DNA of 20,750 bases from a virus: the IMG/VR virus record IMGVR_UViG_3300025118_000201, positions 1 through 20,750 of that record; one strand, given 5' to 3'. The notes under the pieces are model-generated. The model was not told where the DNA came from, made no database searches, and saw only the letters and a list, made by a program, of their open reading frames with translations. The first letter of the stretch is position 1. Each line of letters begins with the position of its first letter. Positions 1,150 to 20,300 of this stretch are shown here, piece after piece. The translations under genes and the position numbers were made by a program.

Positions 1150-4100
1150 CTATTTCTTGTATAAAACCTGTACATCTAATTTTGCCATTTCTATAATAGA
1201 TATATAATCATAAGGCCAGTTGAACATTACTTCATATTCTTTTTCTTCTGTTGTTTCGACATCAAAAATATCTTCAGAAGATTCTCCTACTTGAGTAACA
1301 ATTTTATCATAGTAATTGCTCGTGGCTCTCTGCTTAACTTTAAACACCATCCAACGAAGATTTTCTTTCTCCAAAATAGATGCATCCAAAAGTTCAGTAT
1401 TTATTAGCTCATGTGCCACACTATGATTTTCTAAAGATATTTTTTGATAGTCTCTTGGAGCAACATTTTGCCAAATATATGCTAAATCATCTCTATCTAA
1501 TTCATATTCGAATTCAAACATATACATCACCATTGGTTTAATATCTGGATTATTAATAAAATCAAATTGTGGAGGCAATACATACCGTTGCATTTTTTGC
1601 ACCAACTCTCGAATGGAAATGCCAGCAGCATCCAACGAATCACCAGCGGCGGTGTTCTTATTCATCGCAGCTTTAAATCTTTCTTTTGGAATACTTATAA
1701 ATTTCTTACGTTGAGAAGCAGCTTCAGCAGACATTGAGCTTATTTCACTTTGGATAATACTCTCGGTTGTATATGGGACTACCATCACGGCTTCTTTAAT
1801 TATTTGTTTTGAGGCTAACTCTCCGAGTCTAGTTTTAACTTCCTTTCTCTCGAAGCCCATTAGTTGTGGCAATGACTTCAGTTTTCTATGAAGCTTCTTT
1901 CCGTTTGTGCCGGCATTATTGTTGTTATAAATAGTATCATTAGTGATCACATCATAATGATATTTCAACCAATTAATAGGAATATCACCAATCTTAAGAA
2001 AAACACCATTATTAGTTTCAGTAGGGGGTACACCAAATTGATGCCACATTCCTCGAGGTACAGATGCCGAGCCATAAGTTGGCAATGTTAATGTGGAATT
2101 TGCGGTCGAAATAGGATGAACTGGATCATTATCACTAAAATTCATCATTGGTGTCTCAAACTTGGATTGGATAACCCATTTCTTTCCAACAGCTTTATTG
2201 GTATCCGCTATTAAATTACCAAATTCATCAAGCGTTTGTTCTGTTACTCTTTCAACGCCGAAGATATTAACGCTAGCGCTTAGCTGCATGGCATTTGAAT
2301 TAATATTGGCACCACCATATGGAGGGCCCGGATCATTACTGCCTGTTGCTCCCTTAGGAATCAAAGCATATGTTGTAACGTCAGATGCATAAAGCTCACC
2401 GCCTGGGTCGGCGCGCCAATAGGCAGCACTTGTTTCCGATAGAATTCGTTCTAAAGAATAAGTTCGCCCAGCAACAGGCCTAAAAATCAAATCACACCAT
2501 GCTTCTCCATAAAAATAGGGAGGGGTATAAGCCCAAGCATGACCATTGGCAAAATCTCGAACGCCATTAGCATCACCTTCTCGCGCAATAAGAACCGTTG
2601 AATCGCCGTCAGCGCCCCATGCTGGGCGGCCGGCAACAGGAGGGCCATATGCAGTTGGGCGAGTATATGGAACAAACTTAGGCTTGAAGTCCACATTCTT
2701 AATAGGATCTTGAGGGATGGGATAATAACCACGAAGGGCCGTAGCCGAAGCTCCAGAGCCACTATAAGCCTGAGCCCCTGCTTCAGTAAAGCCGGTATTA
2801 TCTCCAGCAGAGCCCGATTCAGACCCATAAGTTCTCTCGCCATCCCAAGTGCGCTGCATTACAATCCTGGCGCCAAAGATATCACCTCTTTCAAACTCCA
2901 AGTCGTCGGTGATAATACCCGACTTTAGGGTGGAGAACTCTTGGTTCTTTAAAAAGAAATTAGCAATCTCGCCAAAGAAGTTGGTAGACATCTTAGAATA
3001 TATACCATCAGATTCGCCCGTAAATGAAGCGCTTGTACTTAAACTAACGGAAGGGTGTGGTTCACAATCGATGAATAGAACTTCTTTAATGTGAGACTCT
3101 GGTTCAATAATAGCCTCAAAAGGTAAGCGTTGATCATACCATTCGCCTCCATTATATCCCTCTGTTGTGCTCGATGCATTTGTTGCATTGTGGTGTAACA
3201 GAGCCCAATTATTAGTTGTTTCTGACGACCCTGTCCATCCAACAGGTATGAACTTAGTGTCATCTATTAAAACAGGATAATCTACAGCGCAGCCGGCTTT
3301 AATGGTGTTGTATAGAATTCCTGGAGCAAACAAGGGTTGTACCAATGGCCTCAATAATGAACCCGAATATGTCAACAACTTCTGATGCACCTTCATATTG
3401 CCGGCCTTTTTCTTGCCGACAAAGCCGGTACCATAAGATTTAGAAAATTGCGAGACTAAGTTTAGACTTCTTTGTGCTGGGTAAAATCCTTTATATGGAT
3501 TAAATCTAATCGCGGCACTCATTACAAGTCTTATATGAGTAGGAGGCAAACCAGTATCCGAAGAAACATTTCTAAACTCTTTCATAAAATCAGAATTAGA
3601 GTAGTCTTTATAAAAGTTATCTTGTTCACTATTGATAGAAGTACCAGGAATTTCAAATGTATTTGTTTGAGCCAATACTCCATAATTGATATAATCTTCA
3701 ACGTGTTCACTAATTCTAAACTCCGGAATAATAGAATAATCTTTTGCCATAAGTTTTAAATCATATCTAAAATCATCATAATTATTAAACCAGGGCTTTG
3801 AAGCGGTAACCTCAAACCTAACTTGAGACCCGCTCTTAATAACTCTTCCAGCCTGTGTGTCAGCCTCCCAAAAAGCTTCCCCCGCATAAGGTTCTGGTAC
3901 GATACCCTCCATCGAAGCAGTTGAAAATTCTCCAATATTAGGATTACTTCCTGTTTCAGGTATGTTTGTCCATGGACTAACAGATTTGGGGGATTCTAAC
4001 ATGTGCTTTCTAGCATACAAGGCGCCTGGGGCCAGTGTACCATATTTAACTTCCACAGGGTGTATCGTCGGCGTATCCGTATCCCAGTAGAAGAAATAAT

Positions 4101-7100
4101 TATTTTGTAGTTCGCCGGCGGCGCCGGAAACAACCAAGCCTTGATCATAGCCGGGAGGAATCGAGGAAGTATGCCAAATTGGAACAGGCAGAGTGGCCGC
4201 AGTACGAGTTAAAAAGTTTTCCTGGGCGTCGAGGGCCCAACAACTTTGTGAAATGGATCTGCTAAAAGAGTTTCTAAGGACAGAGCCTACTGTTTGACGA
4301 TTGAGTCCTGCTTTTCGTGCCGCGGGTAGCTTATCCAATAAAGTCGCCGTTCCTCTAGTATCTCTCCAAAACTCATTATTATAATCCGTTCTAGTAGTTG
4401 TTCGCGACAAAAGTTCATTTTGATCGGATGGATAAATACCCTGAGAATAAAGAGTCCATTTTAAATTAAAGTTCCTTTTCTGGGAGAGCTTAGAAATTCT
4501 ACCGTAGGCTGTCACGTTTCTGATGTCAGGATTTACTAAAATATTATCCAGTTGAATATTATTAAAATAAATGTGTTTGTTATTGTCTGTTGCTTTAAGG
4601 GTAAAATTATTAATGGGAAGATCACTTCTATATTCTGAACTTTGCGGCGCATTCATGTTCATCAATACAGGGCGCCCTTTTAGAGAAACCGCGCCCAAGC
4701 TATAGTTAGAAAGAGTATCTCTGCCTTCATTTTCAGTAAAAGTTAATGTGGAACCTGTGGCTTCCGCAACCAAAATAGGATGATCATTTTGACGAAACTT
4801 CTGCCAATTCCATCCATACGTATTGCCGCGGCGAGTCATTAAAAGATTGAAATAATTGGCAGCCGAACCCGTAACTGTGTTCGAGTCGGCGGCAGATAAT
4901 TTTTCAATTAGCTGTGAGTTAAAATAAGCGGTGCCGGCAGAAGTGGAGGGATACCCTAACATATTAGTTGTTGAACCTGTGACCGGATCAAGAGTAAAAA
5001 TATTTAACCTCGTGGTAGGCTGAAACATTCCTACTGAAGTATCGATGACGCTTCCCGTAATGAAGTCAAAATAGTCCACATACCCACTAGAGCCCGAGAA
5101 CAAGTCCGCAGGGAAATCGCGACCAGTAGGCTGGAAGCGATAGTATCGTACATCACTCGAAGAGACCAATGATGCTGTAAACCAAGAATATTGACGATCT
5201 GACCGAGGAATAGGATGGGTCACATAAGCATTATCAAACTGTGAACCACTAGAATATCCTGAATCATCCGCATATGCTGTTGAAGATGATTTAATCACCA
5301 TCCAACGATTGCGATTATTCTGTTGAAAACTTGGCAACTGATTATATGTTGCGCCTGGGGACGCCGTTTCAAATATCGAATCTCGACCAAATCTCGCCGA
5401 GTGTCGAGCTAAGAGTCCATTTAAGCCGTAAGACTTACCATGAATATCATATACACGGATGCCCGGCACTCCAGAGCCAGTAGCTTGAGAAATAGTGCCA
5501 CTAGGGGGCTGCCATGGCCGTAGAACAGAAAGATTACGCCAGGGAAGAGCATTGTACGGAGAGTATTCAGCACCTCGAATATCCAAGAATCCGCGAGACA
5601 TAACATCTGGACCACCTGGCGCAGCAAAACGACTTATAAAGACAGTCTTATTGGTTGTGCCTGTGAGTTCTACAGGGGTATAATCCAAGTCCCAATTAAA
5701 GTGAGAGTTTGACGTACGTCGTATCCAGGGGAAGAACCCTACCACATTTGTTGAAGCCGAAGGAACAGTGTGAAGAAGATTTACAACTGGTGTTGGAAGA
5801 GGTGGTTGATATTCCAAGAAATGACGCGGTGTTGAATAAGTGCCAACCGTTTGAACAACCTGCGCGGCGTGAGTATAATTGCCCAGAACAGAATTCATGG
5901 AACTAGTAATATTACGAATGTTAACGGGACGCTTGGCAACAAATCCACGATAGTATATCGCCTTTTGAGAGCCTGTCATCGGATAGGGGCGCGCGTCAAG
6001 CGCATTAGCCTCGGGCCATGGATAATCGGGGCCGGCCATACCAATGGCGCCTGTGCCAATGCCCCTTCCTAGAAGTAATTTCCATGCTTCCGGGCGCGTA
6101 AGATATGTATCTAACACAGACCCAGTATTCAGCGGAACGTGACGAGACTGCATACCGCCAACATTATGTTCAGTAAATGGCCCCTGCATGGGAACTTCCA
6201 TATCGGGTCCATAAACATCATTATGTAAATTGGTTACCTCAATACTAGACGTTACTCTATTAATTACTTGCTTGTTGTAGCCGGATACAACAGAAGAACT
6301 CATAATATTAAAAGGAAAAGAGTATGTAGATTTTGTGTTTGCGTAACCACTACCGTCTTCCCAGTCGCGGCCGTGTTGCACTCTACCAAAAATCCTTTTC
6401 AACTTCCTGCTAGAGGGGAAGTTAGCCACATTAGCTGTAATTTCATCTAATGGCTCTAAGTCATCTGTAAGTGCTAATAAAACATTTTTAGGGACAAAAA
6501 CACTATCGTCTGTATTTACAGGGCCTCCTGGACGGAGAGCATTGAGTGTAAATTGAAGGTTTTTGCTTTCTGGGAAATTAGTGCCTCCCCAATAGCTTCC
6601 GGAGCCACGGCGCGCCAACGTGCTCGAAAACTTTTCATTTTGAGTATTTTGGGCAACATCTTGCATTCCCTTATAGGTGGTGCCGTCTACACTCTTAAAA
6701 TTCGGCAATGCTTGGGGTACAGTTGGGAAACTAGCTGCAATCCTTCGAATGTTATCTCGTTGACTATCGATAGTAGCATCGCCAGAAGTAAGCTCCGGTG
6801 ACGACCTAAGAGCCCTATCTTCCCAAAATGGAGCATGTTTATTAGTGGGGCGTGGACTGCCAGCTACAGTGCTCGTGCTACCAAAACCTGCGTCAGAACT
6901 CCCCAGAAGACCTTCCACTGTGGGCTCTTCATAATCAAGCATCGGAAACTTGCTACGATATTTGTTTCTTTCAAGAACGTGGCTTTCAATCGTATTATAT
7001 GCATCGGGCGTAAAGTCGCCGCTCGCTGGTAAGAGTTGGCCAATTACTTCGGCAATTGCATCATCGAACCATTTGTAATATTCGATAAATTTCTCTACTT

Positions 7101-10100
7101 GTTTAACTTCAGTAACTCTTCTAAAGAATATCTCTCTTAATTTTTCAAGTGTTTTATATCTTCCTCGATATCGATTAATGGGTTCGCCGATCACATTATT
7201 AAAGTCAACCACCCCCGCAAAGAAATTAAGCATTTCCTCAGAGATGGCATTATACATGCTCTTTTCAAGCAGATAAGTAAACTGTGGGGGAGTTTCGGAG
7301 ACTCCAAAATAAGTGTCGTCTTCAGATAGTATCTGTATCATGTCCGAAGAAACCGCTATCTCTGGATTAATAAACTGGTATGCATTCACTGACTGGCTTT
7401 GAATTATAGTTTGGGAACTATTAGACCACCCCGACCCAGAGCCTGCCATTTGATATCCTGCAATTTCACCAACCCATCCATAATTATTACGTATTTCTGC
7501 CGACCCAGAACTAATATCCGTTGTTATAAGAGAGCCGTTGGCATCTGAAGAAGAAAGTTCTCCAAAGTTCCAGTTTAAAGCCAGCATATTAGAGTTCAAT
7601 ACGCTGCCGCTGTTTTGTAAGTTTATATCAAATGGCGACGTGTATTGATAAGACCCCGAAATACCATAGTTGTCAATATCGTAGGCGTGCTGATTTAAAC
7701 TCAAATCATCAAGATATTTTAGCCAATATCTTGCGCCTTCAAAAATTACATCGCACGACGAAGAGAGAGAGCCGGTAAGATTATGCTTTCTGGCGCCAAT
7801 ATATAATCGTTTAGCTGCTTTTAAGAAGTTCTGCCCAACAGTTTTTGTAATCGAGGAAGAAAGTTCAAAACTGTTGCGAACCACTCCCAATTCAGCATTA
7901 ATTCCTTTAAAAATTACATCATAAGTATAAGCTGTGGCACCGGTTACTACTTGAGCCAGTGGCCACTGACTCGGCTTGAGTCTAACTGAAAAGTTCCAAG
8001 CTTGATCATCATATACATCATAAAAGGTTTCACTTGCCATAGTTGGGAACGGCTGATCAACATCGGGACCAAATGCCGAGGTCAACTGAAATTTAACATT
8101 CTTAGAATTTGGTTCATCTCTGATAGCAAATACCTGGAAACTTGCATTGTCGGAAGCATACCAAGTTGTATCATTTAGTGGGCGCTCGCCTGCATTGTCC
8201 GTCGAAGCCGAGCACATTCCAAATAAAGAAATGTTGGTAGGTTGGCGACTAGTCGGCATTGCCGGATCTTCAAAGTTAGGGAAAATAACATCCGCTTCCG
8301 CAGTAAACCCATATTTGCTTTCGTAAGGGACGCCGGATGGGACACCTACACCTTCGCTACCAGAGATATATCCAAATGTTTCAGCGTTTGCAGGATCCTG
8401 TGCTTGATAAACAACACCCCCAACGTTAGCAGATTCGTTGAAGTTCAACATCTTTTGATTGACTAATGTTTGTCGTAAATTATTTTTAAGCTCATAAACT
8501 TGTTTATCAGAATAAACGTTTAAGCGAATCAATTTATCGTCAATGTTAAAGCAACGTAAAACATTTCTAATTGCTTTTTCTGTGCCTTTTGACTTATAAA
8601 TGTTTGTGAGATTATTATAGATGTTTTGATAAATAAGGTTCTTAGTTTCGGTAAGATCTCCTTCGAATAAAGTATTATCAGTTCGATTTAAAAACTTCTC
8701 CATCACATTTGCATCTACAAAAATCTCGGGCATATACAAACCTAATGATTGTGGTAAATGTTGGGCAAACGCAGTAGGTGGGTTGGAAGCACTAGCATAG
8801 TTAAGATATCTAAGCTTGGGAGTTGTTTGAATCATCAACCTTAAGTTATCAAAATACGTCCCCAAAATGTGTGATACCATTTCAATATTGCTTGGATTCG
8901 GGTTTACATATTGTCCATCTCTCGTATCAGCTTCTTCTACTACCCAACTAGGGATTAGACCCTGGAAGGAGGCGTTGTTATTGAAATCGTAATTTGCGCC
9001 TTTTTTCTCTAATGTATCTTTGAGACTAATAACATCTGGGTTGTTACTGCGGATAATGGGGTCTTTATATTCTGTTGCTGAGGCAGAAGACTGGACTATA
9101 GCAGAGTTAAGAGAACGAGAGTCTGAATCATATCCAACCCAATTACCGTTGGTTATTCTTCCGCTATAATCTAGAACACTATTATCGATACTAGCGGTGC
9201 CAGTGATACCTTCATTAAATTTATAATATACACCCAAAGTGGTGTTGGAGATATCTGTGTTGGTGCCGCCGCGAACTTGTGTGAACCAATTTTTGTAAAT
9301 CTCGTCGCCATTTCTGGCCGCTTTCCAAAAGCGGAACTCATCCATAGACGCACTTAATTTACCGGCGCCCGGTTTTGCGGCCTGCCCTGGTAAATTATAA
9401 AGAAGGGCCCCAATACGAGCTTCCGTATTTTTAGAGTTTAAAGCGCCGATGGTTGAAGTGGTATATTCGTTAATGTCATCTAATGCTCCTGTCACATATA
9501 ACTTAGATATAAAATCGCTCCCCGAATTTTGCAGGGTCAGTGCATAATGTTTCCATTCTCCATTAACCACGTACGTGGCTATTTCTGCGCTTCCGATCTC
9601 CCGCTCTTTGAAACCGTTACTTCCCGAACGAACTGTTAAAATAAAAGGAGAAGTGGTATATCCGGATGATACGAGGGATAATGATAATCGAGCATAATCA
9701 TGTTGGTTGGCTGCTGTTATCCCATTCCACATGTCAAAAATTACTTCTTTTTTGGTACCGCCGGCGATGCCCACAAAAGCATCTTTCTTGAGCCAAAATT
9801 CAATTGTGACACCTTTATCAAAATTGCTTTCTAAGTTAGATTCTCGCGACCCTGTTCCATAATTGGATTCTAAACCTTCCGTTGTATAAATATCGGCATC
9901 ATAAACGTTGGCATAATTTCTTTGTGCTGTTGCGGGATCGTCGAATAAACCAGCGCTTGTGCTGGAAGTTATAGTGTGGGGGCCCCCTTTAAATGCTATA
10001 TATTCTTGTTCATCGGGAAGTCCATATCCGTTAGCTGTAGACGTCTGACCTCCCCAGCCATCAGCACTTAAAAGAGCATATCCATTCGTACGAGGATAGT

Positions 10101-10413
10101 CGTTATCGAAAATATACTTTTCTATATTAAGTGATTCGTTATAGAACCCATTGATTTCAGCGTCAGACCCATCATAAGGAAAGTAATCAATAATTCTGTC
10201 TATAGCAGACTTATAATATAAGTTTGCAGAACCATATTTGACAAAGTTTTTAGGCTCGCTATAATCGAGCGGCGGTATAAAAGAGGTTTGCTTTTCGCGA
10301 ATCTCCGCAACATTTTTGGCGGATTCTACATCTTTAAAGGCATCCTTCTGATTTGTATCAGAAAGATAATTTCGAGATGTGTCTGTGGACTGGAAAAGTT
10401 TTTTAATACTCAT
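1150..10413 (-). CDS. Giant baseplate wedge-like protein with LamG-like regions (gp7/gpI-position), 3087 aa
   Basis: Probable third inner-wedge protein of the baseplate, functionally like T4 gp7 or P2 gpI, and greatly enlarged. Visible regions: an N-terminal part (about 1-120) with YFPYDGS and YPRTNGY segments; a LamG/concanavalin-A-like domain at about 200-375, with IEFWLKK, GEWKHYALTL and MDEFRFWKAARN, the usual landmarks of that fold; a KGT motif at about 605-635 (YKSKGTEKAIRNVLRCF) resembling the P2 tail protein I family; a second LamG-like stretch at about 700-910; a helical segment with FIEYYKWFDDAIAEV at about 1110-1160; a long Ser/Thr/Gly/Asn-rich beta-type region at about 1170-2850; and a charged C-terminal domain ending in VQVLYKK. 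I count only about seven cysteines. The ATG at 10413 overlaps the previous gene by 11 bases, with a modest GAG site 9 bases upstream. The structural role is secure; equivalence to gp7/gpI is inferred from gene order and the KGT motif. A large tail fibre or adhesin is the alternative. Confidence 0.85.
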   Translation of the reverse strand: MSIKKLFQSTDTSRNYLSDTNQKDAFKDVESAKNVAEIREKQTSFIPPLDYSEPKNFVKYGSANLYYKSAIDRIIDYFPYDGSDAEINGFYNESLNIEKYIFDNDYPRTNGYALLSADGWGGQTSTANGYGLPDEQEYIAFKGGPHTITSSTSAGLFDDPATAQRNYANVYDADIYTTEGLESNYGTGSRESNLESNFDKGVTIEFWLKKDAFVGIAGGTKKEVIFDMWNGITAANQHDYARLSLSLVSSGYTTSPFILTVRSGSNGFKEREIGSAEIATYVVNGEWKHYALTLQNSGSDFISKLYVTGALDDINEYTTSTIGALNSKNTEARIGALLYNLPGQAAKPGAGKLSASMDEFRFWKAARNGDEIYKNWFTQVRGGTNTDISNTTLGVYYKFNEGITGTASIDNSVLDYSGRITNGNWVGYDSDSRSLNSAIVQSSASATEYKDPIIRSNNPDVISLKDTLEKKGANYDFNNNASFQGLIPSWVVEEADTRDGQYVNPNPSNIEMVSHILGTYFDNLRLMIQTTPKLRYLNYASASNPPTAFAQHLPQSLGLYMPEIFVDANVMEKFLNRTDNTLFEGDLTETKNLIYQNIYNNLTNIYKSKGTEKAIRNVLRCFNIDDKLIRLNVYSDKQVYELKNNLRQTLVNQKMLNFNESANVGGVVYQAQDPANAETFGYISGSEGVGVPSGVPYESKYGFTAEADVIFPNFEDPAMPTSRQPTNISLFGMCSASTDNAGERPLNDTTWYASDNASFQVFAIRDEPNSKNVKFQLTSAFGPDVDQPFPTMASETFYDVYDDQAWNFSVRLKPSQWPLAQVVTGATAYTYDVIFKGINAELGVVRNSFELSSSITKTVGQNFLKAAKRLYIGARKHNLTGSLSSSCDVIFEGARYWLKYLDDLSLNQHAYDIDNYGISGSYQYTSPFDINLQNSGSVLNSNMLALNWNFGELSSSDANGSLITTDISSGSAEIRNNYGWVGEIAGYQMAGSGSGWSNSSQTIIQSQSVNAYQFINPEIAVSSDMIQILSEDDTYFGVSETPPQFTYLLEKSMYNAISEEMLNFFAGVVDFNNVIGEPINRYRGRYKTLEKLREIFFRRVTEVKQVEKFIEYYKWFDDAIAEVIGQLLPASGDFTPDAYNTIESHVLERNKYRSKFPMLDYEEPTVEGLLGSSDAGFGSTSTVAGSPRPTNKHAPFWEDRALRSSPELTSGDATIDSQRDNIRRIAASFPTVPQALPNFKSVDGTTYKGMQDVAQNTQNEKFSSTLARRGSGSYWGGTNFPESKNLQFTLNALRPGGPVNTDDSVFVPKNVLLALTDDLEPLDEITANVANFPSSRKLKRIFGRVQHGRDWEDGSGYANTKSTYSFPFNIMSSSVVSGYNKQVINRVTSSIEVTNLHNDVYGPDMEVPMQGPFTEHNVGGMQSRHVPLNTGSVLDTYLTRPEAWKLLLGRGIGTGAIGMAGPDYPWPEANALDARPYPMTGSQKAIYYRGFVAKRPVNIRNITSSMNSVLGNYTHAAQVVQTVGTYSTPRHFLEYQPPLPTPVVNLLHTVPSASTNVVGFFPWIRRTSNSHFNWDLDYTPVELTGTTNKTVFISRFAAPGGPDVMSRGFLDIRGAEYSPYNALPWRNLSVLRPWQPPSGTISQATGSGVPGIRVYDIHGKSYGLNGLLARHSARFGRDSIFETASPGATYNQLPSFQQNNRNRWMVIKSSSTAYADDSGYSSGSQFDNAYVTHPIPRSDRQYSWFTASLVSSSDVRYYRFQPTGRDFPADLFSGSSGYVDYFDFITGSVIDTSVGMFQPTTRLNIFTLDPVTGSTTNMLGYPSTSAGTAYFNSQLIEKLSAADSNTVTGSAANYFNLLMTRRGNTYGWNWQKFRQNDHPILVAEATGSTLTFTENEGRDTLSNYSLGAVSLKGRPVLMNMNAPQSSEYRSDLPINNFTLKATDNNKHIYFNNIQLDNILVNPDIRNVTAYGRISKLSQKRNFNLKWTLYSQGIYPSDQNELLSRTTTRTDYNNEFWRDTRGTATLLDKLPAARKAGLNRQTVGSVLRNSFSRSISQSCWALDAQENFLTRTAATLPVPIWHTSSIPPGYDQGLVVSGAAGELQNNYFFYWDTDTPTIHPVEVKYGTLAPGALYARKHMLESPKSVSPWTNIPETGSNPNIGEFSTASMEGIVPEPYAGEAFWEADTQAGRVIKSGSQVRFEVTASKPWFNNYDDFRYDLKLMAKDYSIIPEFRISEHVEDYINYGVLAQTNTFEIPGTSINSEQDNFYKDYSNSDFMKEFRNVSSDTGLPPTHIRLVMSAAIRFNPYKGFYPAQRSLNLVSQFSKSYGTGFVGKKKAGNMKVHQKLLTYSGSLLRPLVQPLFAPGILYNTIKAGCAVDYPVLIDDTKFIPVGWTGSSETTNNWALLHHNATNASSTTEGYNGGEWYDQRLPFEAIIEPESHIKEVLFIDCEPHPSVSLSTSASFTGESDGIYSKMSTNFFGEIANFFLKNQEFSTLKSGIITDDLEFERGDIFGARIVMQRTWDGERTYGSESGSAGDNTGFTEAGAQAYSGSGASATALRGYYPIPQDPIKNVDFKPKFVPYTRPTAYGPPVAGRPAWGADGDSTVLIAREGDANGVRDFANGHAWAYTPPYFYGEAWCDLIFRPVAGRTYSLERILSETSAAYWRADPGGELYASDVTTYALIPKGATGSNDPGPPYGGANINSNAMQLSASVNIFGVERVTEQTLDEFGNLIADTNKAVGKKWVIQSKFETPMMNFSDNDPVHPISTANSTLTLPTYGSASVPRGMWHQFGVPPTETNNGVFLKIGDIPINWLKYHYDVITNDTIYNNNNAGTNGKKLHRKLKSLPQLMGFERKEVKTRLGELASKQIIKEAVMVVPYTTESIIQSEISSMSAEAASQRKKFISIPKERFKAAMNKNTAAGDSLDAAGISIRELVQKMQRYVLPPQFDFINNPDIKPMVMYMFEFEYELDRDDLAYIWQNVAPRDYQKISLENHSVAHELINTELLDASILEKENLRWMVFKVKQRATSNYYDKIVTQVGESSEDIFDVETTEEKEYEVMFNWPYDYISIIEMAKLDVQVLYKK

Positions 10414-12166
10414 AGTTTTCTACTCTAAACTTAAAAGTGTCTGGCTGTTCAACCCAAGAATTAAGTCCATTATCATAGAAAGAGAATTTAAATGCGTACT
10501 CATAGCCGGCCTCTAGCAAATTCATATCTAAATCAAAATAATTACCCGAAACATCATAAGACATTAGCGTTTGTAAATCACTTCCAGTTCCGTATGGAAT
10601 AGCATCATAAGCATCTAAAGTTCTATACACTCTATAAGATGCGCTTAAAATGCTCGTTGTCGGGGGAGTAACATTGGCCACCGTGTACACAGTCGGTTGC
10701 CAATTTTTGTCTCTCACATACAAATTAAATCGTGCGTTTTCATTCGCGCGATACTTGTCTTTAAGATTCGTAATATTCATATAATAAGTTGGACGACTAA
10801 TAGTGTTTTCGGCGCGCAATGTATGGCACTCAATCGCGCCCGTAAAATACTGAACATAAGCATCACTAGCGTTTGTAGTAGTATGGCTACCTGTAAACCA
10901 TACATCATAAATGGTTTTAAGTGACGGGTTTTGAGTACCAGTGAACGCAAAAGAGGCGCTATAAATACCCGTTGAAACAATACCTCCTGTTATAACTGTT
11001 TGGTTATCTGAACCAACATGGCTTTCGTTGTCGAGTGATAAGATTTGTGCGCTTCCGGTATTGGCTATCGATCCAAATGCACCCGAGAGAGAACCGGAAA
11101 CAGGAATGTCTGAGGGGGGTACGTCATCTCCATCGCCCCCTTCATAAAAACCGCCGGTTGAACCGGAATAAATGCTTACATATACAACCTTTTTAAAAGT
11201 GCCAGTATGTGATTGGGGAATATCCGCCAATTGTCCATCCACATAGTTATACATGTAAATGGTGTTTAGGTTTTTAGCAGCAGAGGCTAAAGAACTACTA
11301 AAGAAAAAGTTAGCTCTATCATCGGCTTTGGCCGAGTTCCATCGAGCTTCAATGGTCGGTTTCTTAAAGAAATATTCAGTTCCTCGACCAAAAAACCTCT
11401 TGGTATAGTATGAAGTAGTAGATCCGCTCGGGTTGTAGATAACACTCTGTGTTGTATCGTCTCCGTCAAGTGCTAGTTGGCCAGGAATTCGGCTCGTCAC
11501 GGTATTAGCAGAGCCCGATTCATATGCCTCATAACTTGCAGATAAATGAACTCCAATACCATAGTTAGAATAAGTCCCAGCTATCCATTGTTCTACCAAG
11601 GGGGTGATATCTAATTCTAAATCTTCTAAACCTGTAGAAAAATCTTTAGTGAAAGTAAAGATCTCTGTATCCACTATTCCTGTGACAGCGCCTCCCGTAA
11701 GATATGATCCTCCGGCCAATACTGTACTATTAATATCAGTCCAATATGCAGTATTAGAAGCACTCATCCAGTTAGAGCCTTGGTTTTCGAGGGTTAAATC
11801 TTTATACCCTTCGAGATCTAGGCCTACGCCTTCCTGCCATGATTGTGAAACTGTAAGAACTGTTAAAGTATAATCTCGTGGCACAGTTTTTGAGTGTTCA
11901 GCATTATACATGCGTAAATAAAAACTTACACTCCCGCTTGCCGGCACATCACCATTGGTTCTGTCGGTAGAAATATCCGTAACTGGAAACTTAATAAGAA
12001 TCCGAGATAGCTCTTGGGAGCTTGTGGTGACGCGTCCATAAATAGAAAAGGTTTCTAAAACATCGGATTGGCCCGCGTTGGCGCCCGTGCCACGAGTTTT
12101 TAAGTTGGCATCGTAAGCATTAACAACAGTATTGTCAGCATCAGCGACATATCTTTTGATGGTCAT
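10403..12166 (-). CDS. DNRLRE-domain structural protein in the baseplate cluster, 587 aa
   Basis: The first roughly 230 residues resemble the DNRLRE domain, a beta-sandwich found in cell-surface and virion proteins. The signs are an opening with paired positions DNTVVNAYDAN and GTGANAGQSDVL, the strand SRILIKFPVTDI, a SWQEG segment, and the closing DITPLVEQWIAGTYSNYGIGV. The middle (about 270-400) is Ser/Gly/Thr-rich. The last roughly 130 residues (RFNLYVRDKNWQPT, then FDLDMNLLEAGYEYAFKFSFYD) look like an Ig- or macroglobulin-like beta domain. It starts on an ATG that shares one base with the upstream stop (TAATG), 7 bases after a strong AAAGG site, so it is coupled to the gp6-like gene. It sits between the gp6-like and gpI-like genes, so a wedge-associated decoration or adaptor is likely. 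The exact role is unknown. Confidence 0.85.
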   Translation of the reverse strand: MTIKRYVADADNTVVNAYDANLKTRGTGANAGQSDVLETFSIYGRVTTSSQELSRILIKFPVTDISTDRTNGDVPASGSVSFYLRMYNAEHSKTVPRDYTLTVLTVSQSWQEGVGLDLEGYKDLTLENQGSNWMSASNTAYWTDINSTVLAGGSYLTGGAVTGIVDTEIFTFTKDFSTGLEDLELDITPLVEQWIAGTYSNYGIGVHLSASYEAYESGSANTVTSRIPGQLALDGDDTTQSVIYNPSGSTTSYYTKRFFGRGTEYFFKKPTIEARWNSAKADDRANFFFSSSLASAAKNLNTIYMYNYVDGQLADIPQSHTGTFKKVVYVSIYSGSTGGFYEGGDGDDVPPSDIPVSGSLSGAFGSIANTGSAQILSLDNESHVGSDNQTVITGGIVSTGIYSASFAFTGTQNPSLKTIYDVWFTGSHTTTNASDAYVQYFTGAIECHTLRAENTISRPTYYMNITNLKDKYRANENARFNLYVRDKNWQPTVYTVANVTPPTTSILSASYRVYRTLDAYDAIPYGTGSDLQTLMSYDVSGNYFDLDMNLLEAGYEYAFKFSFYDNGLNSWVEQPDTFKFRVENYEY

Positions 12167-13962
12167 TATACAACCTTTCCTCTTATATCCGTAGCGGGAT
12201 ATTTGATTTCTACTAAAGCATTAGCCGGCACAACCAAATAACTTCCATCTGGTGATAAGTTATCGTTGATATCAATATTAGCAAAGGAATAATTAGCGCC
12301 TGTTTTATTAACAAGCTTTACTGTTAGAACATCTAATAAGCCCGTAACATTTTTTAATTCGCTATAAATATCGCTGATATAAAACGGTTCTCCAATATAA
12401 TAAGGAGTGCTATATTTATCTGCCAGTGCATTAACCGCATTATCTAATAAAACAAATTTGTCCGTGCCCGTCGCTGCTTTAATGGTGAACTCAATTCCTA
12501 TATTCAAAATATATGGATCCAAAATATCAATAGTATCATTAATCATTCTATATTGATTTAACCATGTTTTTACATTATCTTTAATAGTACTGTTGGTTTT
12601 TATCAACTTTCCTTGACTATCTTCGGATACAATGTATAGATTAAGATTTCTTTTTAATGAATTGGGGTCTTTTTGTATGGAAACCCTTTTAACAGAACCA
12701 AATTTTGCTGGCATTCTATAAACAACATTTTCATAGTCAGCTTGTGTGACTGCTCGATTTTGAGTGGGAAAAGTATCAAAAATTCTTCTCTTAACTTCTC
12801 CAGAGGAGGGCGCTGTCACGTCTCCCATAATTGGCTCTTCATTAGAAACCTCTAACGAATTAATAACGGTTCTCATCGTGGTGCTAGTAAGCGATTCAGG
12901 ATTTTTAAATTCCATCTTAGCATTACCAACCGAATTTAAAGCAGACACAGCAACATTAGAATTGGAGGCATTTGTGACCCTATAAATTACTGTTAAAACT
13001 GTATTTGATGGAACTATTCCAAGACTTTCATTTCTTGATAGCCGAGTGGGATCAAAAGTGGTATCTGTTACGTATGCTTTCCCAAATGCATTCAAAGCAA
13101 CCGATTGAGGATCGGCCACCACATTCGATTCTCCCGCCTTGCCGCTTCCAAACTGCAAATAAGAGGCCACTCGAGTTCGTTCCACAACGAATTTTCTCGA
13201 TGTTAAAAATGGTTTTAAAATAGAAGGTACATTATCGCTCTTAAAGTTTGTATTCCCCATTTCTTTTAGTACCATATCTTGCGCCAAGTAATCTACTTCA
13301 AAATATTCGTGACCTTCCGCATCAGTTACTGCTATAATCTCAGCCACATTTGTGGTTGCCAATGGTACTTGTAAAAATTTTTGATATGCTCCTACTCTAA
13401 TTTGCTCTTGGCTAAAATATCCAGACACCACATTTCCATATGCTTTAATCGCATAATAAGTGGGTGCACCAGTACTCGTATCCACTGTAGCCACTACCAC
13501 TGGGTTTTTGGAGTCACTAAAATCCACATTCTCTGTTAAAACAAAATTAGTGCCATTTGTAGCTGTAAAGCGAGAGCCTCTTTTTAAAAGAGGTGTATAG
13601 TTTCCGTCTGGGCCCAGACCAGTACTAGACGCAGGTACTACGGCAAAAAGCGCAACTTGACCATAAGTTGAAGGAGTGCCTGTATATTTATACCCTAGAA
13701 CTCGGCCATGGCGCAGAATGTTGTTATATTGGTATGCTGTATCTAAAAAAGATTCATTAACGTTATAATCTAAGTAAAATGAAAGCTGATCTCCCACATA
13801 CGCTACAGCATCAAGCATAATGGAACCGAAAGACGCCTCACTCCAGTCTTTAAACGTATCTGGATAAAAGCGCTCAGCTATTTGCATTAAATCTTCGCGA
13901 ATACTTTCATACTCGCGATGAGTGTAGTCTATTGGTATTATCTTTTTTTGTTCATTTGGCAT
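12166..13962 (-). CDS. Baseplate wedge protein, gp6/baseplate J-like, 598 aa
   Basis: A T4 gp6 / P2 gpJ family protein, the wedge subunit that forms the ring around the baseplate hub and drives sheath contraction. The N-terminus shows the family pattern: DYTHREYESIREDL, then DWSEASFGSIMLDAVAYVGDQLSFYLD (residues about 40-65), NESFLDTA and RVLGYK. The middle has the RAVTQADYENVVYRMP stretch (about residues 398-415), the usual baseplate-J entry to the C-terminal domain. Its length of about 600 is typical of gp6-like proteins. I chose the ATG at 13962-13960 over the TTG one codon upstream (13965) because the GAGGG site is 7 bases from the ATG and only 4 from the TTG. It follows the gp25-like gene by 17 bases and shares one base with the next gene, an order conserved in contractile phages. 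Confidence 0.93.
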   Translation of the reverse strand: MPNEQKKIIPIDYTHREYESIREDLMQIAERFYPDTFKDWSEASFGSIMLDAVAYVGDQLSFYLDYNVNESFLDTAYQYNNILRHGRVLGYKYTGTPSTYGQVALFAVVPASSTGLGPDGNYTPLLKRGSRFTATNGTNFVLTENVDFSDSKNPVVVATVDTSTGAPTYYAIKAYGNVVSGYFSQEQIRVGAYQKFLQVPLATTNVAEIIAVTDAEGHEYFEVDYLAQDMVLKEMGNTNFKSDNVPSILKPFLTSRKFVVERTRVASYLQFGSGKAGESNVVADPQSVALNAFGKAYVTDTTFDPTRLSRNESLGIVPSNTVLTVIYRVTNASNSNVAVSALNSVGNAKMEFKNPESLTSTTMRTVINSLEVSNEEPIMGDVTAPSSGEVKRRIFDTFPTQNRAVTQADYENVVYRMPAKFGSVKRVSIQKDPNSLKRNLNLYIVSEDSQGKLIKTNSTIKDNVKTWLNQYRMINDTIDILDPYILNIGIEFTIKAATGTDKFVLLDNAVNALADKYSTPYYIGEPFYISDIYSELKNVTGLLDVLTVKLVNKTGANYSFANIDINDNLSPDGSYLVVPANALVEIKYPATDIRGKVV

Positions 13963-13963
13963 C

Positions 13964-13981
13964 AAAAAACCCTCGTTTTTT
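13964..13981 (-). promoter_or_regulatory. Ribosome binding site of the gp6-like gene, in a hairpin loop
   Basis: On the minus strand this reads AAAAAACGAGGGTTTTTT. The Shine-Dalgarno core GAGGG (13974-13970) falls entirely in the 6-base loop between a run of six A and a run of six T that can pair. It is 7 bases from the ATG at 13962. The stem overlaps the stop codon of the gp25-like gene, so ribosomes ending that gene would open it. The pairing is visible in the sequence. The stem is A-U only and weak, so any regulatory effect is a guess. Confidence 0.5.
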
Positions 13982-14348
13982 AATTAGTTATTTCCAAGAA
14001 ATCTGAAGCTCCCACCCCTGGAATGGTGTATCTTATTTGTAAACCTAAGTGGTTGTTGTCTGGATCGGTTGTGCCAAAAAATATTTCTTGAATTTGAACA
14101 GCGGGCATATAAATGCGCACCTGTTCTCTAATTTTGGCCTCAATCTCCGCTGTGGCACCCGCACCAAAATTTTCAAATAAATAAGTTTTAATGCCGACTC
14201 CAAAGCGAGGTTCCATCACTCTTTCCCCAGGGTTGGTGTAAAGTAGCATTTTTAAATTTTGTTTTACTAACGGCTTAAACCCTGTAACCATTTTAAACCC
14301 GGTGGAGTAATTTATCTTCAGCGGCAACGCTACGGCAAGTGAACTCAT
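13980..14348 (-). CDS. Baseplate wedge protein, gp25/gpW-like (lysozyme-like fold family), 122 aa
   Basis: A member of the GPW/gp25 family, the small wedge protein that nucleates sheath assembly by joining the baseplate to the first sheath ring (T4 gp25, P2 gpW, TssE in type VI secretion). The family core is clear: NLKMLLYTNPGERVMEPRFG, with the hallmark EPR at residues 46-48, followed by KTYLFE and an IEAKIREQVRIYMP helix. The length of 122 is normal. Despite the old lysozyme name these proteins are structural, and I see no catalytic site. The ATG at 14348 is preceded by GAAAGGG 7 bases upstream. It lies 26 bases after the giant upstream gene and 17 bases before the gp6-like gene, as expected for a W-J pair. 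Confidence 0.95.
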   Translation of the reverse strand: MSSLAVALPLKINYSTGFKMVTGFKPLVKQNLKMLLYTNPGERVMEPRFGVGIKTYLFENFGAGATAEIEAKIREQVRIYMPAVQIQEIFFGTTDPDNNHLGLQIRYTIPGVGASDFLEITN

Positions 14349-14374: not shown

Positions 14375-17300
14375 TTAATCTTTTTCTTCACACAATTCTC
14401 CATTAGCATTAAATGGATTTGTCCGAAGCATTCTTCTCTTCCAGAAGGGAAGTAGATCTTGTCCCGGTCTGGGTCGGAACTTTTCTTTGAGTTGGTTGGT
14501 GATAATTATCCCTCCGCTATCTGCTGGTTCATCTTCTTCATCATCCAGATCTCTCGACTTATAATAGTTTTTAAACATTCTTTTTATTTTACTTTTCGAA
14601 TTGCGCAATAAAACTTGATCCCATTGATCATAGCTCACGACCCCCATGCCAGCCAGAGGATTGAGCAAACTGCCCGGAGTCCGATCCACTTTGTTGGCCC
14701 AGCCATCGATCCCGTCAACCTCGGGTGTAATGACACTTGCAGCAGCGATTTCGTCGGCGCTCGTTGCAGACGTAACGTCTGTAGTGGTGCCATCGGAGGC
14801 ACTGGTCATTGTATATTTGACATTAGAGCCAGGCTTAAGAGCTAAACTATCGGAATTAATGGCCCCAATTGGTACCACTTTTTCACCAATAGAAGGAAGA
14901 AAAGCTTCTCCATTATAAATGGCGGCCATAGCAGTTAGTTTATTCAGTGGGAAAATGTAATGAGTTGCCATTTTAAATTTCTCATCTTGTTTGAGCATCT
15001 TAATCAAACACAACAAAAGCAAACTATCACCTTCCAAAGGATCCATTTGACTAATTTTTAAATCTAAAGAATCGATTTCGACTTCTGTAACAGTATAGGT
15101 TCCACTGGAAAGAACAATCGAAAATCTCAACCCATACCTAACCCCAAGTTCTCCAGTTAAACCAACCGTCTCTCCGTTGACATCAGTTACTAGTTCTAAA
15201 GTGCCCGGATATGCTTCTGAGATGTTGCTATTTTGATCTTTTGAAGCTAGTTCTGTCGAGAGATCGGTGCTACCGGGCGCGTAGTAAGCCTCCCCAATTC
15301 TTATATACTTTTCAATACGAAAGGGGACATCGGCTGGGGTATCAGCGTTATCCAATACTGGTATTGGGGTGGTAGTTGTTATTTGGAAGGGGCCCGTGCT
15401 GGTGTCATCTAGAGGTGCTATATCTCCCACATTCACTGTAACTTTGTTAGCAAAAGGAGTTAAGGTGTCATCCAGCGCTGATGCTTTGCCAGTGTCAAAT
15501 TCCCCTGTCATATACGCCGGATTCCCTTCGGCATCTATTATAACATGATAATATCCAACATATTCACTTCCATCCGAGGCTGCGAATTCTCCTCCACTAG
15601 TGTAGTGTTCATCACCTTCAGTTGGAAGGTCTACATATGTGCGCACCAATTCTTCACTAAGTGTAAGACCAGAACCTCCTTGGGAAAGATATTGGAGAAT
15701 ATAATAATCCAAATCATAAATAGCGGGACTCATTCCTACAATTTTAAGATTTTCAATGAGTTTGGCGCCCATAAAATTCAATTCATTTTTGACGAGTTCT
15801 TTGAAAATTAACTTCGCATCTTCTTCAGTTTTTTGAATGGCTTCATAATTTTTATCTATACGATATTTTTTTAAACTCTCAAAAAGGCCAGCCATGTTAC
15901 CTTTTTCTTCATTTAGTTCTGCTTGATCGGGATAAGCATATCCTTGTTGCATACTGTTTAAACGCCCCATTGCGTCAAGAACATCTTCGGGGGGGTCTGT
16001 AATGGAGCCGTCATCAACTTTTCTTCCATAGAGTTGTACAGTTTGTTCTAAAAAACCATACCAAAACTTACTATTTTTAAAAGGATTGAAAAATTCCCAA
16101 AAAGCTTTTTGAGCGCCTTTAAAACTAGCTTCCATATCTTCAATAATATATTGCGCATAAAGAGAACTAAACACTTCCGGGAAACTGGGATTGAATTTTG
16201 TAAAAGTGGCTATTGATTTTATAAAGTTTGTACTTACATAAATTCTAATAGCAGCACTAATGAGTCCCTCTAATCCTGCCACGTCTGCTCTGTTTAAAAT
16301 TCTATTATAAGGTAACTCAACCGCACAATCGGGGTCATCCCTTAGACGCTCATCCTCTGGGATAAGGGGATATGCATCATCAATCTTATCTTGAATATCT
16401 TTGAAATCAATTAAATCGGTAGTGTATGGCTTACATGGACTCATCTCGGGGAACATAACTTCAACAAACCCAAGCCAACCTGTGCTTTGGCTTGGGGCCA
16501 TATAGATGGGAGGGTTGACATAAGATCCTCCATAAGTTAATGGATCTAAATAAAATGCTCTATTTGTTGGCGTTGGAATGGGTTCTCCGGCGTCCTTGGC
16601 CGCGGCAGCCAAAACATTGTCATTATACTGCATACGACTTATACCCATGATCTGATCCTTAGGTAATATAGGCCGCCATCCCAATTTAAAAACAATCCGT
16701 AATGGGTCAAGTAACGGTACATCAAGTTTTACATCGTAATAATTGGTGCCGGCTTCATAAGTCACGGGAGTACCCGTAAGATCCACCCCTGCCACTGGCT
16801 CTTCTAACACATATTCAATATCTTCAGTACTTAATTCATCATAAGTTGCTCCATATTTAAAAGCGTTTTCATTTTCACCAACTTCCTGGGTAATCAATAA
16901 TGTAAGATTAGTCATAATGGCATCATACTGGGTTTGTAAACTGCTTATCTCAAGATCATTTCCATTGTTTTTTAATATTTCGTGTAATAAAACCACTTGT
17001 GGGGCATATGACTGATAGCTCGAAAATGTAGAAAGAAATTGCGGGTAGCTATTAAAATTTATACCATCTAATGTGTCATCAACTGATAAAAATTCGTATT
17101 TTACATCTTGCATCACAATGGTGGGGAAGGTAAAGAAATCTCGGCCCGAGCCCCACGTACCCACCCAATCGAGGAAAGTATCAACACCAGCAGCCTCAAG
17201 CGTGTCAGCACTATTTTTTGGTGTTAATGTGTCTTGTAGGTCCGTAAAAAAGGATATTTCTTTTCCAAGTATTTTAACACGAATAACGGGAACCATTGCC

Positions 17301-20300
17301 GCCAACTTAGTAAATGTCACCCCCGTCAAATTAGATTTTTCCAAGATTTTAATACGGGCCGTGTCGCGCGGTTGATTTGTGGTACCTACAGTTTTTCCTA
17401 AAGAAACTTCTAGGAGGGTATGAGTGTGACACTGGCCATCCTCATCGCAAACTTCTTCAACAACCCCACCCACAATTGAATGAATGTGGCCATCCGCCCA
17501 AGACGTTTCTCCATTCAAAGTAGGTTCTGCATCCTCCCCTTCGGAGTCTAAATCGCCTATAGTATAAGTGTGACGATGTCCATCATCAAGGGACGTAAGA
17601 GTCTCTTTTAAAGCAGCAAGAGAACCGCGGTTGCGGGCGCCAGTTATTACACCATCATCGGAAACCAAATCTGACAAATAAAGTTGCAAGTCAAATCCTG
17701 TGGAATATGCGTCTCCTATATCGTAATCCCATGGGACGCCGTCGTACGCGTACCCACTCGTCGAGGCGCCTCCCACATTGGGTGTTGCCTGCAGTCCTTT
17801 ACAATTGTCTTGAAAACTTAGTACAAGATCGGCGGTGGATTTTCGTGCTTGTTCAACGAAATTAATTTCTTTGGTCTCAAAATCTGGTTCAAAGGTAGTG
17901 TTATAACCAAGAACGTCTGAATCGAGTCGTAATAAATTAACTCCACTTCCAACAGTTCTTACGCCGGCTTGGGCAAAACTAGAAGTGGTGGTTACATTGC
18001 CTATAAATTCATTATTTGATGTAAATGTTACAATTCCTGGGAGGCCGCGGTCAGCATAATCCGGAGTAGTCATTGGCGCCAAGCCGGTTTTCACATTTCC
18101 CAAGAGATAATCTTGTAACCATTCTCCAATTTTAGTTGGGAAAGCGCCCTCTTGCTTGCTGAGTTTGGGTGGGTTAGGGAAAAGGGCGGCGAAGGTCTCG
18201 GTGTCTTCTGCTGCATCTACGGCATCTGAATCCTTTTGGTCTAAATAAAAATCAACATATCCCCTTCTATTGGAAGCTTTTCTATTATGAGCAGTTAAAG
18301 GAAGTCCCATCGTATCCGACAAAACCATGTTCATCAACCCATATTTTGATTCCCATGGGCCGTTTCCAATCATATCGTAAGCAAATTCAATTTTTAATGC
18401 TTCTAGATCGCCACTTAAACCGGCCGTCGCAACAGACACTGACTCTTCGGGCTCAATAGGCAAAACCCCATTATCGCAGCCGGGATCAGAAAATAAGGGA
18501 GGAAGTGCCGCCTCTGGAATTCCCCCCTGTAATGCATTGGCTATATCTGATAAATCGTTTGATGGTACACATATTTGTGTTATTTGCTCTGCTGTCGCTC
18601 TTCCTGAAAGTATTTGACTTCTGAGGTCGCAGAACTCTTCTACTTGTTCTGGTGAGGCGCATGCACACAAACCAGCAGCTTGGGGTATGGCGTCAGGAAA
18701 GGAATCCAAAAAGTCTTGCAATTTCTCTTTAAAAGCTCCCGGGAATAAATTGCCCATATTACAAAAGAAGCTTTTAATAGTGTCGTCATTCCTCAGGCCG
18801 GCCTCAAATTCAGGATATTCATAATGGATTATTTGGCGAACAATCTGTAAAAACTCTGCGGATGGCTCGCACAAAAAAGCACTATAAAGTTCTTCGGTGG
18901 TTACAGCATTAGATACATCGCCTGCCAAGTTTAAGACCTGTTCTGTGTCGGCCAGTGCGGCAGTCCCAACTCCCAAATCACTAAACATATCTACAAGCGT
19001 ATCATCAATTACTTCGTCTGGGACGTCGTCTCCGCAAATAGAATCTCTAATGGCATCAACAATTTTGGTGCGACCACCGCTAGCCAACGCGGCGAGAGCT
19101 TGTCCGGTGGCACCCGCTGCTTTACAGGCGGCGCCTCCCAATATATCACAAATCTTTGTGAAAATCATTATTAATATTTTTAACAATGCCTGTTGAATAG
19201 CATATTTGGCCGCTTCCATCAATAATCTTTGAAAATCATTTCGTGATGGCATCCATCCGTAAGGGTTTTCATATCGCGGCATTGTAATGCCGTGGGTCGT
19301 CGTACAAAATGGTATTTCGAAATCCTTAATGAAATCCACATAGGAAGGATTAAAAGGAGGAGGAACTGGACAATCTAAAGTGGCAATGATATAAGAGACC
19401 ATTTGAGCGCCAGGAAGCTTATTCAATTCCGCTAGCAAATCCATATAGGCATCAGCATATAACTCCAAATATGCCAAAATTACGGCTTCCATAACTAGGT
19501 TAGGATCCAGCTTTCCAGTCGCGCCGCTTGCATCTAATGTTTTTCCTAAAGTGCGTTCATCACGGCGGGCACCTGAACCCCACGTTAACGGCTCACCGCC
19601 GGTAGTTTGTGGCGGGTCTCCTTGCATGTCCGACTTCTGCTGTTCGGTAACCATTGCTTCATCTTCAAACGGGTATCCGGCATCTGGGGTTGGGTTTGCA
19701 TCAGATGCAATCTGATCGGAAGTATACTGTAGATCAGAACCTTGTTGGAAAACGTCTCCACTTTCTAATTTTTTCTTAATTAATGCATCTAATTCTGCTT
19801 GCTTAGAGGGAGGAAGCCCAACAAATAATTTATCAAAATTCTCCAGACTCATTGCTCGCAATGCGCTTTCAATAATAGTGGCCATGGCCTGTTCAAAAGT
19901 CAAGCCCGAGAACAAACACGATACCGTTGACATCATTAATTCTGTCATACCACAGAATTTAATTTTATCAAAAGCCTCTTCCCATAACTCTTCTATAGAG
20001 TCTACAGAGTCCGTCAGGGCAGCACAAAACGCCAAAGTAGATTTAGAATCTATTGATTCGTAAGCCTGCATTTTGGCCATTTTCATAATATCCACATTCT
20101 GTTGTATGTCTGAATCCCAAACTTGGCCAATCTTAATTTTCTCGTCTATAATTCCTTGAATATCTTCACTGCATAAGTTTTTATTAAATTGATAAGCAAT
20201 AGCGTCGCCTAAGTTGAAAACTTCATCTAGAATATCCTCACCTAGTTGTTTTCCTTCGTCTGCTAGGGCGGCCGCTACACAGCTAACTACTGTATTTTGA

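Follow-up and report, generated by a model that had tools for sequence, protein, structure and literature searches.

A giant putative third baseplate wedge protein with LamG-type inserts and a once-gained extension in uncultured, mainly marine phages

Introduction

The third component of the baseplate wedge is known from phage T4 as gp7 and from phage P2 as gpI, and the (TssF)2(TssG)1 complex of the type VI secretion system is equivalent to (gp6)2(gp7)1 (PMC6300606). In Alg12, in which gp6 and gp7 are fused, the gp7-like part has been called an evolutionary hotspot and mediates fibre contacts (PMC8894135), and marine T4-like phages are said to lack gp7 (PMC7029224). Sugar-binding modules in a third wedge protein have already been published: Gp119 of Bacillus phage Vp4 (baseplate wedge 3, 831 aa) contains carbohydrate-binding modules and decorates host cells (PMC11406892). 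What is new here is a much larger variant, a 3,087-residue protein encoded on a 20.75-kb fragment of a virus record (20,750 nt, hereafter the window; the wedge cassette and all features given below lie on its minus strand). We consider it likely that this protein serves a contractile-tailed phage as the third component of its baseplate wedge, built from a core that carries LamG inserts and from an extension that was gained once.

The giant protein resembles Vp4 Gp119 and its module-free homologue, Gp177 of phage Deep-Blue, in that carbohydrate-binding-type modules come and go in the third wedge protein of related phages. It differs from Gp119 in that the modules of the latter adopt CBM16 and Xyn10B-type folds, not the LamG fold, in its length (3,087 as against 831 residues), in its large extension, for which Gp119 has no counterpart, and in the phage family concerned. 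T4 gp7 (1,032 aa) is likewise encoded after gp6, shows the Gp7_helical region followed by a KG(T/I) motif, and is similar in size to the ~1,130-residue core of the giant; however, it has no LamG domain and no extension, its motif reads KGI rather than KGT, and a comparison of whole profiles is not significant. P2 gpI (176 aa; Tail_P2_I, TIGR02242) aligns with the KGT helix region, including the pattern that precedes the motif, and the P2 gene order W-J-I corresponds to gp25-gp6-giant, although gpI is about 17 times smaller and the window has an extra gene between the gp6-like gene and the giant. The contrast in size with gp7 and gpI that was drawn in the initial annotation therefore holds. Alg12 differs in being a gp6-gp7 fusion rather than a gp7 with a C-terminal extension, and in that system the carbohydrate-binding modules reside in Alg11.

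A conserved giant gene in a wedge cassette

The 3,087-codon ORF noticed initially is present as described; it starts with ATG and occupies positions 1150..10413, stop codon included. A scan of IMG/VR with the giant protein returned 64 loci, and the database holds 31 distinct full-length relatives, all of them single ORFs of 2,968-4,732 aa, while at least 593 stretches were confirmed when the N-terminal alignment served as the query. Between the giant and its closest relative (L010, ~87% identical), dN/dS is 0.01-0.29 in every region. A chance ORF is excluded by the number of confirmed stretches together with these low ratios, and the ORF is a real, conserved gene. The lineage is uncultured and appears to be mainly marine, judging from metagenomes and relatives rather than from the window itself. 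No match to the two ends of the giant was obtained by tblastn in 50,697 phage records, and sequence searches of PHROG and PDB with the full-length protein gave nothing useful. Two unusual loci were set aside: a three-ORF version of the giant in L049/L119 (~15400-17000) arises from two frameshifts inside an inserted LamG-bearing region, shows no clear start sites there and probably reflects sequence error or decay, and an apparently chromosomal copy in a WOR-3 MAG (L133, CP070664.1) has gap or masked N stretches inside the gene and a non-viral continuation, so that it is probably a chimeric scaffold and not a prophage.

Read along the minus strand, the window contains the end of a 2,124-aa ORF, a gp25 gene, a gp6-like gene, a gene for a 587-aa protein, the giant and a 355-aa ORF. 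The gp25/gpW-like wedge protein (122 aa, 13980..14348) matches PF04965 (2.5e-13) and phrog_261 (1.1e-21), and the gp6-like baseplate wedge protein (599 aa, 12166..13965) matches phrog_10646 (3.6e-17), phrog_219 (8.3e-17) and TIGR02243 (6.4e-11); the giant gene is thus a member of a cassette with gp25/gpW and gp6/gpJ. The intervening 587-aa protein (10403..12166) is DNRLRE/CBM96-like (NF033679, E 3.3e-5), and its relative in Microcystis phage Mel-JY01 has a CBM96 match (E 5.5e-5). The counterpart of this protein in L010 carries a separate insert of ~134 aa near residue 140.

Searches with a divergent relative (L065) uncovered a sister clade, whose locus encodes gp25, a gp6 of ~615 aa, a ~515-aa protein and then a stand-alone protein of ~1,120-1,290 aa. 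The stand-alone protein is homologous to window residues ~48-1140 and ends there, at a segment that we refer to as the H module. The order gp25, gp6-like, a protein of ~515-590 aa and the giant or core protein is kept in both the fused and the stand-alone clades. L065 also encodes, downstream of the wedge cassette, a protein of 1,016 aa (L065:14796-17846) that contains a long collagen-like GPTGPTG repeat and is probably a tail fibre.

Relationship of the core to gp7 and gpI

Three curated models of the gp7/gpI superfamily bear on the identity of the giant. In the window record, Tail_P2_I (PF09684) matches at 8506..8604 (11.7 bits, E 0.0025) and the TIGR02242 phage tail protein domain at 8545..8631 (10.3 bits, E 0.0077), both below cut-off. 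They fall within a helical domain (residues 440-668, 8410..9096) that surrounds a KGT motif (residues 609-611, 8581..8589); the motif occurs once in the giant and is invariant in the aligned sequences, including those of three outgroup phages described below. Among the 69 records searched, 32 gave a total of 33 matches to Tail_P2_I, every one of them within the giant/stand-alone ORF family and almost always at the KGT region; the scores of two family members are above the curated cut-off (20.8 and 21.4 versus 20.6), and that of the window is below it. No match to PF09684 was found in the other ORFs of contigs of up to 340 kb, which are of uncertain completeness, the window being itself a fragment. 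TIGR02242 matched 10 records besides the P2 control, always in the same ORF family, including the window and a 1,265-aa protein of Flavobacterium phage immuto. Gp7_helical (PF21428), which covers residues 643-689 of T4 gp7, matches 17 ORFs of the stand-alone clade (best E 1.4e-5) and, two stray matches elsewhere aside, lies upstream of the KGT motif wherever both models match. The three models are therefore collinear on this ORF family and, within these records, practically confined to it. Their matches are non-independent, coming from related sequences, and mostly fall below curated cut-offs, and their strength lies in the agreement on ORF and order. Tail_P2_I does not match even T4 gp7, so that low scores are to be expected across this superfamily.

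When the profiles of the KGT domain and the gpI family were compared, the score was 33.5 (P 3.9e-4), whereas 60 column shuffles reached no more than 17.1 and the reversed profile scored 9.8; the comparison with T4 gp7 alone was not significant. The PDB search with the KGT alignment returned weak capsid-protein matches only (E 0.1 or worse), which were taken as chance. Modelled alone with AlphaFold2, the KGT domain is almost entirely helical and elongated (67 sequences, pLDDT 71.7, pTM 0.37). Foldseek with residues 440-690 returned no match from the PDB, whether gp7, gpI, TssG or another protein (best E 3.8), and against viral predictions the KGT domain matched only uncharacterised phage proteins. 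The corresponding helices in known wedges pack against gp6 chains, and a lone-chain model with a pTM of 0.37 is for this reason a poor query.

Two further segments delimit the core. Near the N-terminus, residues 31-115 (SANLYYKSAIDRIIDYFPYDGSDAEIN..., 10069..10323) form helices in the AlphaFold2 model, are conserved (identity 0.53-0.67 to the family) and are common to the stand-alone clade as well. At the other end, the H module (residues 1035-1162, EEMLNFFAGVVDFN...EYYKWFDDAI, 6928..7311) has a dN/dS of 0.01, is the point at which the stand-alone homologues stop and is also found in isolates. The gp7-like core of the giant thus comprises residues ~31-1162 (~1,130 aa) and ends near residue 1,162.

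Full-length relatives of the gp6-like protein occur in phages Mel-JY01 and immuto and in a 484-kb uncultured phage, each of which encodes a protein of 1,265-1,404 aa with KGT and H regions two or three genes past gp6 (KGT HMM, E 6e-23 to 6e-18; H HMM, E 1.5e-14 to 3e-8). In WWT39511.1 (Mel-JY01, 1,336 aa) and QQO92079.1 (immuto, 1,265 aa) these regions lie downstream of gp25-gp6, as in the window; in contrast to the giant, LG1 (the first LamG domain, below) is not detected in them, LG2 is absent from immuto, and neither has the extension. The 'hypothetical proteins' of immuto (L259:18249-22046) and Mel-JY01 (L258:19265-23275) qualify for annotation as gp7/gpI-like wedge proteins, which supplies names for proteins of isolated phages in which the ideas put forward here can be tested.

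Gene order, the three family models, the gpI profile and the stand-alone sister family all favour the initial proposal of a third wedge component, and on this sequence evidence the gp7/gpI reading of the core is well supported. It does not extend to the whole protein: nearly two thirds of the giant (residues 1170-3087) is an added extension, and what lies beyond residue ~1,162 is not gp7/gpI. A different possibility is that the giant is a VrlC/Gp106-type outer-baseplate protein that replaces gp7, a substitution suggested for pelagimyophages and cyanomyophages; VrlC has been put forward as the substitute for the missing gp7 of marine T4-like phages (PMC7029224), and homologues of A511 Gp106 bear carbohydrate-binding modules (PMC11406892). 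We regard this as improbable for the giant as a whole, in which no VrlC-annotated PHROG finds a match and whose family is instead matched by Tail_P2_I, TIGR02242 and Gp7_helical, although the extension alone could be VrlC-like.

LamG domains inserted in the core

The only Pfam match above cut-off in the giant is Laminin_G_3 (PF13385), at residues 199-372 (28.0 bits versus a cut-off of 27.6, E 2.8e-6), within a LamG/ConA-like domain termed LG1 (residues 190-425, 9139..9846); the same match is found at LG1 in 24 of the 30 aligned relatives. AlphaFold2 modelling of residues 1-1162 (30 sequences, pLDDT 67.7) produced beta sandwiches at ~200-400 and ~700-900 and helices at 459-621 and 1052-1127, and Foldseek of this model retrieved pentraxin, LamG and related lectin folds (E about 1e-6 for pentraxin/LamG at LG1). 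The second sandwich, LG2 (residues 695-912, 7678..8331), is conserved and has no Pfam match in the window, and its LamG-like assignment comes from the model, in which the block has a pLDDT of mostly 75-92, and from Foldseek. Two laminin LG-tandem structures align over >700 columns and would span both regions. LamG-like regions thus do flank the KGT motif, as first noted, LG1 by Pfam and Foldseek and LG2 by the model.

The LamG domains are inserts in the wedge core and were gained as modules. The KGT-to-H distance is ~80 residues in immuto as compared to ~420 in the window, from which it follows that immuto lacks LG2 and, in turn, that a simpler core received the LamG domains by insertion. Two of these domains are fixed and flank the KGT helices on either side, and extra copies occur at a few fixed loops: L010 carries a clean additional LamG of ~255 aa in the loop at residues 672-677 (8383..8400), the main site in relatives corresponds to residue 1715 (5269..5271), and others correspond to window residues 1467, 1685, 1533 and 320. 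Longer proteins tend to have more LamG domains (rho 0.71 between length and LamG count). In the comparison with L010, a single close pair, dN/dS is 0.29 for LG1, the fastest-evolving region, 0.05 for LG2, 0.07 for the KGT domain and 0.01 for the H module. This pattern, read from one close pair and the fold, fits a situation in which LG1 and the optional copies face a target that changes and LG2 is structural. Fold, rapid divergence and domain gain together suggest that the LamG domains may bind glycans.

The LamG domains could alternatively belong to a genuine wedge core and yet act as structural spacers, or bind baseplate or fibre proteins, with the host being recognised only through separate fibres. 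LG2 is conserved to the same degree as the core (dN/dS 0.05), LamG folds often serve as protein-protein modules, and in AlgoCIS the gp7-like part holds the tail fibres (PMC8894135), all of which would suit such a role. Against it, no region evolves faster than LG1, and additional LamG domains are gained at fixed loops even between relatives of 87% identity, as expected of recognition modules, and Vp4 Gp119, with its carbohydrate-binding modules, binds cells whereas the module-free homologue does not (PMC11406892). On balance we think a purely structural or protein-binding role rather unlikely, while giving it appreciable weight, and favour recognition by the LamG domains.

A clade-specific C-terminal extension

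Residues 1170-3087 (1153..6906) are conserved across the fused clade, most strongly at 1351-1500 and 2901-3000. The extension has no match in the PDB and no convincing one in Pfam, save for extra LamG-type domains in some members. In a tree of the helical core, a quick tree in which long branches were flagged, the fused and stand-alone forms each constitute one clade (SH-aLRT 100 and 97), and therefore a single gain of the extension, in one clade, suffices. About two thirds of the giant was thus added once, and the resulting wedge component is exceptionally large for the gp7/gpI superfamily in which it is placed (2,968-4,732 aa in the clade versus 1,032 for T4 gp7). In the sister clade, proteins of ~300 and ~1,400 aa adjoin the stand-alone protein, and an origin of the extension from these neighbours is plausible by position and size. 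A fusion of the two was examined by HMM and profile comparison, which show only a shared LamG insert, and was not retained.

The size of the giant, its Ser/Gly/Thr/Asn-rich composition, its beta-rich LamG parts and the frequent placement of fibre genes after wedge genes might suggest a trimeric tail fibre, or else a receptor-binding protein, whose gene simply happens to adjoin the wedge cassette. This interpretation is disfavoured, and we judge it very improbable: the giant contains the gpI/gp7 core, has no collagen-like runs and, in the modelled residues 1-1162, consists of globular LamG and helical domains, whereas collagen-repeat fibre-like proteins sit further downstream in relatives such as L065. 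Its C-terminal part is, moreover, among the most conserved (56-61% at 2901-3000), unlike fibre tips, and this conservation argues against the extension being one.

For the wedge component that we prefer, the following arrangement can be envisaged. The helices around the KGT motif (440-668) and the H module (1035-1162) would pair with two copies of the gp6-like protein encoded nearby in each wedge, a stoichiometry transferred from T4 and the type VI secretion system. The LamG domains, placed in loops of the core, may face outwards and bring the baseplate into contact with surface glycans, LG1 and the optional copies serving as variable recognition parts and LG2 being mainly structural, and residues 1170-3087 would most likely form the outer baseplate and a platform for further LamG domains. 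More tentatively, and with some doubt on our part, the wedge might act as a host-range module, in which interchangeable LamG domains in fixed loops and an outer-baseplate extension of 1,900-3,500 residues equip all six wedges with receptor-binding arrays of their own, so that hosts could be switched while the separate fibres stay as they are. Lectin-type modules are gained here at fixed loops of a core part of the contractile machine; if these modules are glycan-binding, hundreds of uncultured marine myophages would recognise their receptors partly through the baseplate frame, where host-range prediction centred on fibres would miss it.

A 355-aa protein (MTKFLDKKEQVFDLKLTPYGRYLLS..., 42-1109) is encoded directly after the giant and has no match in isolated phages; ORFs of 350-386 aa, akin to it in size, follow the giant in several relatives. 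Upstream of gp25, the 2,124-aa ORF (14375-20749), which is open at the window edge, has a weak PHROG 'protease' match only (E 0.008) and is possibly a second giant baseplate protein. An ORF of like size (~2,080 aa) lies upstream of gp25 in relatives of the fused clade, and several smaller proteins are encoded there in the stand-alone clade.
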